Source of the DNA: Cryomorphaceae bacterium
GTDB taxonomy: Bacteria > Bacteroidota > Bacteroidia > Flavobacteriales_D > Cryomorphaceae
Assembly (NCBI GenBank): GCA_003565555.1
Contig: PXBH01000186.1
Span: 1 to 39,614 of the forward strand
Reading direction: 5' to 3'
DNA: 39,614 nt
The position numbers and the translations under genes were made by a program. Numbering within the stretch: position 1 is the stretch's first letter; every line of letters begins with the position of its first letter. The notes beneath the pieces were generated by a model, which saw only the letters and a program-made list of their open reading frames with translations, searched no databases and had not been told where the DNA came from. This document shows, piece by piece, positions 1,740 through 8,124 of this stretch.

Positions 1740-3101
1740 TTAACGCGGGAGATGAACGGTGAAAACATTCCGACGTCCGGCTTCGGAACGGTAGGTGATT
1801 TCACCGCCGTGCATTTCCATAATTTTGTGGATGAATACCAGTCCGAGACCGAATCCGCGCTTGCCCCGACTGTTCTCCCCGCGGAAAAAGTGGCGGAACA
1901 TGAACTCCTGCTCTTTGGCGCCGATCACCCGGCCTTCATTGACGAATTCTACGGAAACCCCGCCCTTACGGCCGGAGATGTGCACTTCGGCCTCTTCCGT
2001 ATCGCTGTACTGTATACAGTTAAACATTAGGTTGGTCAATGCGCTTTTCAAGAGGCGCTCATTGCCTGACACCGTAAGGTCTTCCGCCGCCTCAACGGCC
2101 TCTGCATAGGCCACATTGAACTTGAACCCGGGCCGCAGCCTTTGCAACTCTTCGGCGATGTCGAAGATCATTTCGTCGGGCCGGATCGGCGTCTTTTTCA
2201 TTTCGCTCCCCGTTTCGGTCTTGGATATTTCCAGAAGGGCGTCAATGATTTCGCTCAGGGCCTTGGTGTCTTCCTTTTGGTCTTTGATTTGCGCCCGCAA
2301 TTTCTCGGGATCTTCCTCCTTTTCCATCCGTTCAAAATTGGAGACCAGAATGGATACCGGGGTTTTGAGCTCGTGGGAGATGTGGTGTATGGCGTGCTTT
2401 CGAAAGGAGAAGGCCTCGCGCATCCGCTGCATGAGCTCGTTAAATCGCGCCGTGAGCACCGCGATTTCGTTGTTGGTCTCTTTGGTCATCAGGGGGCTGT
2501 CATCGCGCTCGAAATTGTAGGCCGCTATGGTCTCTGCGACTTCCTTCAGGGGTTTGGAGATGCGCCGCGCGAGGTAGAATGACACGGAAATGATGATGAG
2601 AGAGATCAGGATGAAATTTATGATGAGTACGGTTCGCAGAAATTCCAGCTTGGTATACCCGTAGGCATCATAGGCTTTCGAGATCCCGTAGTAAGACTTA
2701 CTGTCCGACTCAAAGCAGATGCCCACTACATCATACCGCCCGTCTTTTTGCTCAATCCAGTTGAGGCCGGGGGAAAGCCTTTCCAAGATCTTCCCGTAGT
2801 AGGGAATTTCCGTATCGTCGATGCTCTCGTAGATGAGTTCTTTGTTACCATTGAATATCAAGAGCTTTTCATCATAAATGCGCTCAATGGTCACTTTGTC
2901 GAGTGAACTGACAATGTCGCTGTCCATCTGTTTTACCCGGCTCAGGTAGTCGAGGGTCACGGTAATCCGCTTCTTTTGACGCTGTTGAAATTCCTCTTCG
3001 CGAAACTCGTAGAAAAGGGTATAGATGAAAAACAGCGAAATGCCCGTAAGTCCTATCGCCGTAGCGGAGAAATAGGTAAGAATTTTTTGCTGAATGCTCA
3101 T
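1740..3101 (-). CDS. Sensor histidine kinase of a two-component system
   Basis: This 453-residue membrane kinase has a first transmembrane helix at about residues 8-30. A periplasmic sensor segment of about 125 residues follows, then a second helix (about 157-177) and a HAMP linker (about 178-230). The HisKA domain has its phospho-acceptor at His243 in the motif HHISHELKTP. The HATPase_c domain shows the N box (LTNLMFNCIQYS, about 355-366) and the G2 box RGFGLGL (415-421). The G1 box is degenerate: VNEGRVI stands where DxGxGI is usual, a variation I recall from other Bacteroidota kinases. The gene overlaps its response regulator by 4 bp (ATGA), so the two are translationally coupled. The signal sensed is unknown. 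Confidence 0.93.
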   Translation of the reverse strand: MSIQQKILTYFSATAIGLTGISLFFIYTLFYEFREEEFQQRQKKRITVTLDYLSRVKQMDSDIVSSLDKVTIERIYDEKLLIFNGNKELIYESIDDTEIPYYGKILERLSPGLNWIEQKDGRYDVVGICFESDSKSYYGISKAYDAYGYTKLEFLRTVLIINFILISLIIISVSFYLARRISKPLKEVAETIAAYNFERDDSPLMTKETNNEIAVLTARFNELMQRMREAFSFRKHAIHHISHELKTPVSILVSNFERMEKEEDPEKLRAQIKDQKEDTKALSEIIDALLEISKTETGSEMKKTPIRPDEMIFDIAEELQRLRPGFKFNVAYAEAVEAAEDLTVSGNERLLKSALTNLMFNCIQYSDTEEAEVHISGRKGGVSVEFVNEGRVIGAKEQEFMFRHFFRGENSRGKRGFGLGLVFIHKIMEMHGGEITYRSEAGRRNVFTVHLPR

Positions 3102-3799
3102 TCCGCGTCAAAGTAATATCCGAAGCCCACCTTGGTTTTAATCGAGGCTTTGCCGAAGGGCTTGTCCACTTTATTTCGAAGAAAATTGATGTACACCTCA
3201 ATGGTATTCGTGTTCGCGTCAAAAGCGCTTCCCCATATCTCTTTGATGAGCTCCCGTTTTGAGACCAATTCTCCTCTGTTTTTCAGTAGCTTCAGCAAAA
3301 TTTGGTATTCACGTGGCGTGAGTGTCAACTCCTTACCCTGCCGCATGACCTTGGCTTTTTCCGGATACACGGTGATATCACCTACCGTAACGGGCTGCTC
3401 GGGACCGCGGGCCTCCCTGTTTTCCGCACGTTTCACCAGCGCTCTCACGCGCATGAGCAATTCGCGCATATAAAAAGGCTTGGTGAGGTAATCATCTGCG
3501 CCCGCATCAAATCCGCTCACCTTATCATCCAGATCACCGAAGGCCGTGAGCATGATTACAGGGGTGTCTGCGCCTCGGCTGCGCAATCCGCGGCACAGCT
3601 CATAGCCATTTTTTCCGGGAAGGTTGATGTCCAGAATCACGCATCGGTAGCTGTGCTTTTGCAAGAGCTTTTCCGCGAGGGTACCGTCGAAAACGGATTC
3701 GGTGTGCAGTCCTTCCGCGGTCAGCGCCTCCTTGATATTTGCGTGGAGGGCCGGGTCGTCTTCTACGAGCAGGACTTTATGTGTTTCTTGCCATGTCAC
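3098..3799 (-). CDS. OmpR/PhoB-family response regulator
   Basis: This 233-residue DNA-binding regulator is the partner of the kinase encoded immediately downstream. The receiver domain (about 8-120) has acidic pocket residues Glu13 and Asp14, phospho-acceptor Asp57 (VILDINLPG), Thr85 and Lys107 (LTKPF). A winged-helix output domain follows (about 135-231), with LTPREYQILLKLL and the C-terminal signature TKVGFGYYF. The start is a GTG codon at 3799. It lies only 7 nt beyond an exact Bacteroidota -7 element, so the transcript has almost no leader. It is the first gene of the regulator-kinase unit. Confidence 0.93.
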   Translation of the reverse strand: MTWQETHKVLLVEDDPALHANIKEALTAEGLHTESVFDGTLAEKLLQKHSYRCVILDINLPGKNGYELCRGLRSRGADTPVIMLTAFGDLDDKVSGFDAGADDYLTKPFYMRELLMRVRALVKRAENREARGPEQPVTVGDITVYPEKAKVMRQGKELTLTPREYQILLKLLKNRGELVSKRELIKEIWGSAFDANTNTIEVYINFLRNKVDKPFGKASIKTKVGFGYYFDAE

Positions 3800-3906: not shown

Positions 3907-6288
3907 TTATGCGGCGGAAATCAGCAAAGAAACCATTACATTTCTCCCCGGTTCGGGTAATTCGAGGAGGCGGTAGCGGCTGAGGTGCTGCAGGTAGAAG
4001 GTATCGCCGATATTGCGCACCTGTACGCTGAGGGAAAAATTGAACCTGCCGATCGGTTTTGACGCGGCGAATCCCGCATGGAATAAAGTGTAACCGGGCG
4101 TGGCTTTTTCATTTCGGTCTGTCCGATTTTGGGCGGAGGCCGTGACCGCTTCCGCAAAAAAGTACACGTCCCGCCGGCGTTCCCGCTTGAAGTACCATGT
4201 GGCCTCGGCGCGGGCGAGGAGCGGAGGGGTAAAGGGCAGGGGCAGATAGGTGTCGAGGTTCAGGTTGTACACGTATTCCAGCGAGGTGTTCAGGCTGAGT
4301 TTTCGCATAGGGTTCCAAGTCACCTCAGCCTCGCTCCCGGCGTGGAAGGCACGCGCCTGTGTGTACAGGAAAAGCTGTCCTGCCTCGGGAAGCGGGGAGA
4401 AGGTAGCTGTGGGGCGGAGGAAGATGAAGTTGTCGAAGTAATTCACGTAAGGGGTCAGCGCAAAGCTCACTTTGTCGCGGTAGTGGTAAATGCCCGCATC
4501 GAGTTGCCACCCCGTTTCGGGTGTCAGGGTCGGGTCGCCCTGTTCGTGGCGGAAGGTGCCGTGGTGTACACCGTTCATGCCGAGCTCCGGAGCGGTGGGA
4601 AAGCGAAAGCTGCGGCCGATGTTTGCCTTTAAATTCCAGGCATCTGCGGGATTCCACGAGAGGCCGGCGGCTCCGGACGGCTGTCCGAAAAAGGCGTTCA
4701 CCTCGGGGCCGCGTTGTGTCTCTCCGATAATCTCTTCCGGGGAGGCATATACGGGCATAAAATGCGGGTCGATGTCGACCCGTGCGAAGTCTTGCCGCAA
4801 GCCGAAGCTGAAGGTGAGCTCAGTTTTCGGCGCGTACTCGGCCATGGCAAAGATCCCGCCCTGAGCGGTCCTGAAATCTGAGAGGAGAAATTCGAAACCT
4901 GACCTTTCGTTCTGCTGTATTTGGCCGTTAAAACCGAATACCGTCTTCCACGCCTCATTGTGCTGTTTGTGGTAGCGGGTATTCAGCGTGAGTGTGATGA
5001 GGTCGAGCCCCAGGGCAAGGTTGTTTTCCGGACGGGGTCCCTGCCCGTGTACTTCGGGAAAAGATTCTTCGCGGCGGTCGTTGCGTTGAAATCCGGCATC
5101 GGTTTCCCAGCGTCCGCCGCCGATACGCAGGCGGCTGTTGAGTACGGTTTTGAAATGGTTGATTCTTTGGCGCGGGATATCGGTATTGCGGTGGTCGCCG
5201 TCGTGGTTGAGGGCATAGGCGCGGGGTATGCCCACGGCACCGGGAAACAGTCCGGTGGTTTGGCTGTAATTCGAGGCTGTGAGCCTTACGGTGCCGCGCC
5301 TCATCACCTTGCCCGCAGAGGCGGAAAAATGCCGCTCGCGACCTGCGGTGTTTTTCAGGCGCCGACCTTCGATGGGGAGCACAAAGCCGTTGTAGACAAA
5401 CTCATCCGCAGGTACCCGATAATCACCGTACTCCTGCCAGGTAGCCCGCGCGTCGAAAAAGAAATCCGAGGGGCGGCCGGACACGGCTACGGAGGTGCCG
5501 ATGTGGTCATTGTTGCCGCGGAATACCCCGAGCACACTTGACTTGAAAGTGCCGCGCGGCTCGGTGCGCGGCTCGAGTACGTTAATGACTCCGCCCATGG
5601 CATCCGATCCGTACATCAACGAGGCGGCCCCGCGAATTACTTCCGCGCGGTCTACATTGTAAGGATCTATTTCGAGGCCGTGGTCGCTGCCCCATTGCTG
5701 CCCTTCTTGCCGTATTCCGTGGTCGTTTACCGTGATCCGATTGCCCTGAAGGCCGCGTACCACCGGCTTGGCAATGCCCACCCCGGTGTTGATGCTGTTC
5801 AGCCCGGGGATTTTTTCGAGGCCCTCGCTGAAGGTGCTGTTGTAGTTGCGCTCCAGAAATTCCCTGCCCAAGACCCGAGTATTCGCGGGAGTGCGGCGCA
5901 GATCGCCTTCGATGAATGTACTGCGCACGATGACCTCTTCCATCTCAAAGGCGCGCGGCTCCATACGGATAGTGATCAGGGTATCCGCGTAGAGGTCGAG
6001 GTGAATTACATTTTCAGCGTAGCCCATGCGGTTGGTTCTGATATGGTAAGTTCCCGGATCCAGGTGGAAATGGAATTCGCCTTGTTCATCCGGATAGCTG
6101 CGGTTTCCCGTCTCCTCCACGATGACCTCGGCACCTGCGACAGCCTCCCCCGATTCTGCATCGATGACCTTGGCGTACAAAACATGGTTGAAAGCGGGGA
6201 TCTGCTGCGCGGAAGCGGCAATGCTGAAAAAAAGAAAACCCGCCCAAAGGGCGAGTATCTTTAAGCGGGTGTGACTTCCGGTTATCAA
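3907..6288 (-). CDS. TonB-dependent outer-membrane receptor, ZnuD/HmuR-like
   Basis: This receptor of about 793 residues should import a ligand across the outer membrane using TonB energy. It has a signal peptide (to about residue 28, ending ASAQ), then a carboxypeptidase-regulatory-like beta domain (about 35-115). The plug follows, with VVRGLQGNRI and AEVIRGAASLMYGSDAMGGV. Then comes the 22-strand barrel region. The segment GVHHGTFRHEQGDPTLTPE in the barrel resembles zinc/heme-type receptors of this phylum, which is family memory rather than a test. The chosen start is TTG at 6288, whose TTGA overlaps the stop of the upstream lipoprotein gene. The only longer start is TTG at 6336, which would overlap by 52 bp and bury the signal peptide. 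Unusually, the protein ends SLLISAA rather than in an aromatic residue. Confidence 0.88.
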   Translation of the reverse strand: MITGSHTRLKILALWAGFLFFSIAASAQQIPAFNHVLYAKVIDAESGEAVAGAEVIVEETGNRSYPDEQGEFHFHLDPGTYHIRTNRMGYAENVIHLDLYADTLITIRMEPRAFEMEEVIVRSTFIEGDLRRTPANTRVLGREFLERNYNSTFSEGLEKIPGLNSINTGVGIAKPVVRGLQGNRITVNDHGIRQEGQQWGSDHGLEIDPYNVDRAEVIRGAASLMYGSDAMGGVINVLEPRTEPRGTFKSSVLGVFRGNNDHIGTSVAVSGRPSDFFFDARATWQEYGDYRVPADEFVYNGFVLPIEGRRLKNTAGRERHFSASAGKVMRRGTVRLTASNYSQTTGLFPGAVGIPRAYALNHDGDHRNTDIPRQRINHFKTVLNSRLRIGGGRWETDAGFQRNDRREESFPEVHGQGPRPENNLALGLDLITLTLNTRYHKQHNEAWKTVFGFNGQIQQNERSGFEFLLSDFRTAQGGIFAMAEYAPKTELTFSFGLRQDFARVDIDPHFMPVYASPEEIIGETQRGPEVNAFFGQPSGAAGLSWNPADAWNLKANIGRSFRFPTAPELGMNGVHHGTFRHEQGDPTLTPETGWQLDAGIYHYRDKVSFALTPYVNYFDNFIFLRPTATFSPLPEAGQLFLYTQARAFHAGSEAEVTWNPMRKLSLNTSLEYVYNLNLDTYLPLPFTPPLLARAEATWYFKRERRRDVYFFAEAVTASAQNRTDRNEKATPGYTLFHAGFAASKPIGRFNFSLSVQVRNIGDTFYLQHLSRYRLLELPEPGRNVMVSLLISAA

Positions 6289-7100
6289 TCTGTCAATTCG
6301 AAAGTGCGGTAATAAATCGCAGTATTGTTTCTCCAATCAAAGGCCTCAATGCGCAGGGAGCAAAGTCCCGTTTGCACGAACCCGGGAATATTGTACGTGT
6401 GTGAAATTTCGGCTGTATCGCCGAAGTCATCGGGAAAGTCGACGCGTGCCACACTGAGTTCGATGCCTCCCGGCTCGATCAGTTGAATTTCATACCCGCC
6501 CGTGGCGAGTGAAGTTTCATCGGTGAGGAGGCCTTCGATGGTCAATGTTTCACCCTTGCTGTAGGTCCCGCCTTCGGAGGGGCTGTGCAGCGAGATGACA
6601 GGCGGAACAGTGTCTGCCGAGTCGACCACTAAGAGGTCAAAAAAACGCTCCGGGGCTTCCTGCCCTGCGGCGTCCAGCACTTGTACGCCGAGATGATAGA
6701 GGCCCGGACGCACATCATCGGGAGATTGGAAAGTCTTTGTCACCGTTTGTTCGGTACCTGAAAGGTCAATGATCTCGATCACATTCCAAATGGTGTTCTT
6801 ATGACCGTGGCAATCAAAATTGTTGTGCAAATCGAATTTGGCACTTCCGAGTTCCGTGTCGTCGGTAAAACGCACGGTAAGTTCAACCGCTCCGCCCGCC
6901 GCGATTCTCAGTACGAGATCGCTCGGCGCTTCACAAATTTCCGCTGATGTAATTTCCGGGACTGTTTTCACAAAGTGAATCTCGGGAGGAGTCAGATCGT
7001 CATCACGGTCTTTATCACACCCCGAGACCAGCAGTCCGGAGGCCAGAGCTATAACCCAAAACCCGAAACTGATCCTCGGACGGGCGATGCGGTTGTCCAT
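6285..7100 (-). CDS. DUF4625-type lipoprotein with a His-rich motif
   Basis: A signal peptide ends in the lipobox LLVSGC, making Cys28 the predicted lipidated residue, followed by an Asp-rich stretch (DKDRDDD). Two immunoglobulin-like segments follow. The first contains AKFDLHNNFDCHGHKN, which I recognise as the DUF4625 signature and whose His/Cys/Asp cluster could bind a metal. The second begins near DTVPPVISLHSP. The start is taken at ATG 7100; a TTG at 7118 would add six residues. The gene is preceded by a T9SS-exported protein gene (28-bp gap) and overlaps the TonB receptor gene by 4 bp. It probably acts at the outer membrane as a partner of that receptor. The metal-binding role is inference. 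Confidence 0.8.
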   Translation of the reverse strand: MDNRIARPRISFGFWVIALASGLLVSGCDKDRDDDLTPPEIHFVKTVPEITSAEICEAPSDLVLRIAAGGAVELTVRFTDDTELGSAKFDLHNNFDCHGHKNTIWNVIEIIDLSGTEQTVTKTFQSPDDVRPGLYHLGVQVLDAAGQEAPERFFDLLVVDSADTVPPVISLHSPSEGGTYSKGETLTIEGLLTDETSLATGGYEIQLIEPGGIELSVARVDFPDDFGDTAEISHTYNIPGFVQTGLCSLRIEAFDWRNNTAIYYRTFELTD

Positions 7101-7128: not shown

Positions 7129-8067
7129 TTATTTTTTTACAACGGTACGGGCATAACGGTATTCCGCTGATTCCAGCGCTACAACATATGCCCCCGAAGG
7201 ATGTTCGTTCATGTTGATCTGAAGAATGTTTTCGCCGGCAACGGTCCTTGCTATCCTGCTCTCCAACATTTTTCCCGTAAGGTCGAAGAGGCGTACCACC
7301 ATCTCTCGCGACTCCACAGCGTCGAAACGAATGTTGAGAACGTCCGGGCAGGGCACCGGGTAGAAAGACGGCTCACTTCCGGCGAGAAGGCCGCTTTCAC
7401 TGCTCACCGTGCCTGAGCCGCTCATGATGGGATAGATGGCGAAGTAGGTGCTGATGTCGGTGAAATTCTGGGTGAGATAATCCTTCCAGTTCGGTGCGCC
7501 GTGCCCGTGCCAGCGGATTACATTTCTTCCGAAGACATCATCTGAGGCCGGGCGGCTTCCGTCGGGACCTGACATGAGCACAATGGTATCGTTGTGCGGC
7601 GCATGGCTGTAGTCACCTACGTCAAGCGTGACAAAAAAATTGTTCTCTACATCTACAGGCGCGTCGAACATCACCGTGGTAGGGCCGGTGGTGTTTATTT
7701 CAGCCATCGGCATAGATTCGGATGCAAGCTCGCTGCCCGGCAACCCGTTTGATGCGGTCTCATAAAGCCGCAAAGAAGCGGGAATGGCATTGCCGCCCGA
7801 AGAGACGGCCGTGCCTTGGATATGGGCAATGATGCCGACTACCTGACCGGGCCCGTCAATGTCAAATTTTTCTCCGAACTCTTCGTCTCCGAAAATATTG
7901 TGCCCGAGGTAATAACCCCAAAGTGGTGTCCCCTGCGATGTTTGTCCCCAGAAGTTGGGCGTAGCTGTGGCCTCTTCAGGCGGGATGTGCTGAAGAACGT
8001 GGGTATCTTGGGCGCCGGAATGAAGCGCGAGGGCTGCCAAGGCAGCTGAAAGGAAAAGGTGTTTCAT
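7129..8067 (-). CDS. T9SS type A-sorted exported protein, first gene of the TonB-receptor operon
   Basis: This 312-residue protein has a Sec signal peptide (to about residue 19, LALHSGAQ). A beta-rich body of about 200 residues contains several His pairs (SHAPHND, RWHGHGAPNW). The C-terminal T9SS type A sorting domain (about 235-312) begins SFYPVPCPDVLNI and ends YARTVVKK. I do not recognise a named family for the body. It should be exported through the type IX machinery and then attached to or released from the surface. It is the promoter-proximal gene of a three-gene unit with the DUF4625 lipoprotein and the TonB receptor. That context suggests it helps capture the receptor ligand. The operator just upstream implies control by a ligand-responsive repressor. 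Confidence 0.85.
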   Translation of the reverse strand: MKHLFLSAALAALALHSGAQDTHVLQHIPPEEATATPNFWGQTSQGTPLWGYYLGHNIFGDEEFGEKFDIDGPGQVVGIIAHIQGTAVSSGGNAIPASLRLYETASNGLPGSELASESMPMAEINTTGPTTVMFDAPVDVENNFFVTLDVGDYSHAPHNDTIVLMSGPDGSRPASDDVFGRNVIRWHGHGAPNWKDYLTQNFTDISTYFAIYPIMSGSGTVSSESGLLAGSEPSFYPVPCPDVLNIRFDAVESREMVVRLFDLTGKMLESRIARTVAGENILQINMNEHPSGAYVVALESAEYRYARTVVKK

Positions 8068-8084: not shown

Positions 8085-8092
8085 CAAAGGTA
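8085..8092 (-). promoter_or_regulatory. -7 promoter element of the metal-uptake-like operon
   Basis: TACCTTTG on the minus strand is an exact TAnnTTTG match, 17 nt before the ATG at 8067. A TTG sits 18 bp upstream (8111-8113 read on minus), the expected -33 spacing, inside the palindrome at 8108-8124. This is the best-formed promoter in the window. Confidence 0.75.
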
Positions 8093-8107
8093 TGAATTTC
8101 CGCCTTA

Positions 8108-8124
8108 ATGCAACAATGTTGCAT
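8108..8124. promoter_or_regulatory. 17-bp perfect palindromic operator over the -33 box
   Basis: ATGCAACAATGTTGCAT is a perfect 8-1-8 inverted repeat whose core is 7-1-7. Fur-superfamily metalloregulators (Fur, Zur, PerR) often bind 7-1-7 boxes. It covers the -33 TTG of the promoter at 8085-8092, so a bound protein would exclude the sigma factor and repress the operon. Which regulator binds is not shown by the sequence; a Zur- or Fur-like repressor is inferred from the operon content. Confidence 0.65.

Follow-up and report, generated by a model that had tools for sequence, protein, structure and literature searches.

A perfect palindrome over the promoter of a TonB receptor operon

Upstream of an operon encoding a T9SS protein, a DUF4625 lipoprotein and a TonB-dependent receptor, the DNA analysed here (hereafter the window, that is the whole stretch of 39.6 kb) carries a perfect palindrome that overlaps the promoter. 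This raises the question of whether the palindrome is an operator and, if so, to which regulator it belongs. The initial annotation had suggested a Fur-superfamily operator that could define a metal (Zur/Fur) regulon. The analysis supports such a regulon, and the evidence favours Zur (zinc) over the iron-type Fur paralogue: we give a probability of about 0.9 to the reading that the palindrome is an operator of Zur, of the zinc rather than the iron type, to which the regulator would bind in a zinc-dependent manner. The features are collected in Table 1.

Table 1. Features of the window operon and of its promoter, and box sites in the same genome
Feature	Position	Strand	Basis or remark
Putative Zur box ATGCAACAATGTTGCAT	8108..8124	.	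Sequence; genome-wide and cross-genome pattern comparison
Conserved core TGCAAC-NNN-GTTGCA	8109-8123		Within the box
-33 element TTG	8111..8113	-	Inside the box; sequence; register matches sister species
-7 element TACCTTTG	8085..8092	-	18 bp from TTG; position class +31 to +34 common among boxes
T9SS type A sorted secreted protein, 312 aa	7129..8067	-	First operon gene; PF18962
DUF4625 lipoprotein, predicted all-beta, two domains	6285..7100	-	PF15418; conserved His cluster
ZnuD-like TonB-dependent receptor	3907..6288	-	PF07715, PF00593; 3/4 ZnuD zinc ligands conserved
OmpR-type response regulator	3098..3799	-	Adjoins receptor; neighbour in sister species too
Sensor histidine kinase, partner of the OmpR-type regulator	1740..3101	-	Neighbour in sister species too
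Box site 1			Promoter of the window operon
Box site 2	C106		Between two divergent lipoprotein units
Box site 3	C172		Between Fur-family gene and ZigA-type zinc GTPase

As initially annotated, ATGCAACAATGTTGCAT is a perfect 17-bp inverted repeat. Its symmetry is 8-1-8, and it is the sole one of its kind in the window; the minus strand has it as TGCAACATTGTTGCA. Since 0.6 palindromes of any 8-1-8 type are expected by chance in 39.6 kb, its symmetry by itself is not significant, and the comparison across genomes is what decides in favour of the box. The promoter layout that had been described, with a TTG placed 18 bp from a TAnnTTTG element, proved to be exact: on the minus strand, the inner TTG (8113-8111) is followed by the 18 bases CATTAAGGCGGAAATTCA and by TACCTTTG (8092-8085), and the first operon gene, encoding the T9SS protein, starts with an ATG at 8067. 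Directly upstream, on the same strand, lies a gene for an S1/P1 nuclease (PF02265, 8166-8975), a member of a zinc-dependent enzyme family, and the box is located in the gap between this gene and the operon. Short direct repeats of the CCTGAGCCTGTCGAAGGGCGCTG type were also observed close to the window start, at about 70-160.

TAnnTTTG elements were found near boxes 123 times, as compared to 22 in shuffled sequences, and at preferred offsets. In 35 cases the offset was -6, which places the box over the -7 element; the other preferred offsets were +21 to +26 and +31 to +34, the latter corresponding to a box over the -33 element, the arrangement seen in the window. These registers agree with repression of the occlusion type, which would be the mode of action of the bound regulator.

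The box in the same genome and in related genomes

A sequence-pattern search of the 3.72-Mb genome with TGCAAY-N3-RTTGCA (TGCAAYNNNRTTGCA) returned exactly three exact sites, and none was found with the reversed control pattern. When up to two mismatches to the box were allowed, two perfect sites and one site with a single mismatch were obtained, and three additional sites with two mismatches resemble the background. The inverted repeat that had been annotated stands, with the correction that the core conserved across genomes is 6-3-6 (TGCAAY-N3-RTTGCA) and not 7-1-7. The site on C106 is 21 bp upstream of a gene for a lipoprotein with a partial DUF4625 match; on its divergent side there are a 198-aa protein without assignment and then another DUF4625 lipoprotein. 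Other copies of the box precede metal genes, and the Fur-family gene itself has one as its neighbour, which is the distribution anticipated for a metal regulon. None of the box sites of this genome is at its znuA homologue, on C234.

Conservation of the box extends to the orthologous operon and to related genomes. In a sister species of the same genus (G002), whose operon proteins are 53-66% identical to those of the window, the promoter reads TGCAACTTTGTTGCATTAACGAAAGAATTGCTACCTTTG, with the core, the TTG, the TACCTTTG element and the spacing all as in the window. A perfect box was found in 27 of 120 related genomes (reversed control, 0); with Y/R allowed, this number rose to 37 of 120, with two control matches. 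A Zur homologue (E<=1e-12) was present in 33 of these 37 box-bearing genomes vs. 66 of the 120 overall (Fisher p=2e-7). In several families, boxes immediately precede zur, and these often lie in the gap that separates it from a divergent TonB receptor gene; upstream of some zur genes, no recognisable box was present. In the sister species, a DUF1826 gene and a gene for a tricorn-type protease are also preceded by boxes (L113 802, 3043), neither of which has a counterpart among the own-genome sites.

A test free of circularity was provided by 80 named Bacteroidota loci picked by receptor homology alone. In the 1.02 Mb covered by these loci, the box occurs 30 times and the reversed pattern never; most receptor genes have a DUF4625-type gene as a neighbour, and several have zur. 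In one such arrangement (L171, from Bacteroidetes bacterium 43-16), the box, the T9SS homologue, the DUF4625 gene, the receptor gene and zur are consecutive, and the box is repeated upstream in an imperfect form.

In the fetched loci, 68 of 100 boxes directly precede a gene from one of the labelled target families (40 TonB receptor, 23 Zur, 6 ZigA/COG0523 and 13 DUF4625-type); some of these loci were selected by the box itself, so that the figures tell us which genes adjoin it and nothing more. The remaining boxes, about one third, precede some plausible metal genes and others that are apparently unrelated. Further neighbours include two carbonic anhydrases, one DUF1826 gene and one P-type ATPase. 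Genes of the MerC family (PF03203) were observed near the box in five loci (L041, L055, L057, L060 and L063), a hint that zinc is the metal handled by the MerC proteins encoded there.

The Fur-family protein encoded next to site 3

The genome contains two Fur-family genes. The product of the one adjoining site 3 (P0001, on C172) shows the FUR-family domain (PF01475, 43.8 bits vs. a cut-off of 23.1). Its best PDB match is Zur from Streptomyces coelicolor (3mwm), and Zur/FurB from M. tuberculosis (2o03) is among its top four. When P0001 was compared with 51 homologues, the cysteines of the structural CxxC pairs (C97, C100, C131 and C134) were found in 52 out of 52 sequences, as were H92 and H94, while C79 was present in 51. 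We take C79 to be the regulatory cysteine of Zur proteins, belonging to the second metal site (ScoZur/MtZur); at this site of P0001, the canonical Asp is apparently replaced by His65. The iron-type Fur paralogue is devoid of C79, C100, C131 and C134, and keeps only the first CxxC cysteine.

P0001 scores 30.7 bits against the NCBIfam Zur model PRK11639, as compared to a cut-off of 167, and is far under the cut-off for every NCBIfam equivalog. We took PRK11639 as representing a narrower (enterobacterial) group and did not treat it as defining for Zur. Because the equivalog scores are below threshold, the naming of P0001 as Zur relies on site residues, genomic context and weak similarity. In its conserved residues, the protein carries the hallmarks of Zur, and it would bind DNA in a zinc-dependent manner.

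The ZnuD-like receptor and its companions

The three downstream genes had been correctly named, as domain searches indicated. The receptor (P0003), whose gene has a probable TTG start that overlaps the stop of the DUF4625 gene, has the plug and the beta-barrel of a TonB-dependent receptor, and its best PDB match is ZnuD (4rdr). The zinc ligands of ZnuD are Asp99, His100, Glu340 and His499 (PMC4557270). In the alignment, the ZnuD numbering of the construct differs from that of the paper by 14 throughout, equally in both segments; on this basis, Asp99, His100 and His499 correspond by manual residue count to Asp182, His183 and His555 of P0003. Glu340 has no aligned residue, and Glu387 is a candidate for its role. 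All 87 close relatives have His183 and His555, together with an Asp or Glu at position 182; the two histidines are also present in 28 of 30 more distant receptors. With respect to the NCBIfam ZnuD model, the score is 110.8 vs. a cut-off of 950 bits; since it is below the curated cut-off, we call the receptor ZnuD-like and not ZnuD.

In the T9SS protein, His155, His187 and His189 are invariant in five out of five homologues, and the DUF4625 proteins share a histidine cluster of the form DxH...FDGHxH...YH. These conserved histidines are hints of possible metal sites in both proteins. The predicted structure of the DUF4625 protein is all-beta (mean pLDDT 88.7), and a fold search with this model gave beta-sandwich matches (Ig/FnIII-type) with TM-scores of just 0.3-0.4, which are uninformative on function. 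As for the response regulator, its membership of the operon is uncertain. The regulator and histidine kinase genes (1740-3799) also adjoin the receptor gene in the sister species (L112), and both may possibly be co-regulated with the receptor operon.

Alternative readings and proposed mechanism

The box might instead belong to the iron-type Fur paralogue (C106:5147-5506), in which case the operon would import iron or haem. The very existence of a second Fur-family gene goes in this direction, as do the facts that the top NCBIfam scores of the receptor are to haem/haemoglobin receptor subfamilies and that ZnuD itself is similar to haem receptors (PMC4557270); yet three zinc ligands of ZnuD are conserved in P0003, and the box is also found upstream of ZigA-type GTPases. 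Moreover, the C106 Fur gene has no exact box nearby, the sole C106 site being about 14 kb away, whereas boxes repeatedly flank zur. For these reasons, we regard an iron or haem operator as very unlikely.

Marginally less probable still is that an unrelated repressor, for instance of the DtxR/MntR type, binds the palindrome, and that the latter lies near zur genes by coincidence. In one locus (L049, 4997; G036) a box is indeed flanked by a DtxR/MntR-family gene on one side and a TonB receptor gene on the other, but this is a single case, whereas adjacency to zur recurs in several families; the exception perhaps reflects cross-talk between metal regulators. That the palindrome arose by chance and has no function would be in line with the number of such palindromes expected in the window, but the orthologous promoter and many other genomes retain this specific sequence, with controls at or near zero, which leaves this explanation hardly any probability.

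We therefore return to Zur, the putative zinc-sensing Fur-family repressor encoded on C172. When zinc is ample, dimeric Zn-Zur would sit on TGCAAC-NNN-GTTGCA, cover the -33 TTG and block the promoter. When zinc is scarce, Zur would be released, and production of the T9SS protein, the lipoprotein of the DUF4625 family and the ZnuD-like receptor would follow. At the surface of the cell, these may capture zinc, which is then imported. Zur would also regulate its own gene and zigA, plus the second locus for DUF4625-type lipoproteins. In a broader reading, to which we give a little better than even odds, DUF4625 lipoproteins, in some lineages with a T9SS companion, form together with a ZnuD-like receptor a Zur-controlled zinc-capture machine widespread in the Bacteroidota, in which secreted or surface-exposed histidine sites would take zinc from the environment and pass it to the receptor.

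Significance and comparison with known systems

In the searchable open literature we found no mention of DUF4625, and no Zur site for Bacteroidota in the open literature, although a prior prediction in subscription papers or regulon databases is possible. A 2021 review on Zur contains no mention of Bacteroid- or Flavobacter-, and a survey of COG0523 and Zur does not mention Bacteroidetes. Zur operators are already known; what appears to be undescribed is the consensus in Bacteroidota, along with DUF4625 and T9SS proteins as targets. The box can be used to search for operators of zinc control in a phylum that is dominant in gut, soil and sea, and a testable role in zinc capture can be proposed for DUF4625. 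Further candidate targets follow, such as MerC-family proteins, carbonic anhydrases and DUF1826.

Single components of the proposed regulon resemble known proteins. The GTPase encoded on C172, beside zur and sharing its box, is similar to the ZigA/COG0523 zinc metallochaperone GTPases (PMC2770081), with 544 bits to the NCBIfam zinc metallochaperone ZigA (NF038288), slightly below the curated cut-off of 600. The receptor is akin to ZnuD, the neisserial outer-membrane zinc transporter (PMC4557270, 4rdr), in being matched best by it in the PDB and in the three aligned zinc ligands, and differs from it in an extra N-terminal CarbopepD_reg domain and in a low overall similarity.

As a regulatory system, the closest parallel in this comparison is the Zur regulon of Caulobacter crescentus (PMC4176598), in which a Fur-family regulator acts through a palindromic operator over promoters, TonB-dependent receptors (znuK and znuL) are targets and a box is found at zur itself. 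Unlike in Caulobacter, the core is here TGCAAC-N3-GTTGCA, the promoters are of the -33/-7 Bacteroidota type, DUF4625 and T9SS proteins are among the targets, and a response to zinc is what we infer. The pairing of a surface lipoprotein with a TonB receptor for metal capture also recalls XusB-XusA, the xenosiderophore pair of Bacteroides (PMC12574912), with the differences that the lipoprotein family is judged to be another one, and that the ligand is presumably zinc and not a ferric-siderophore.
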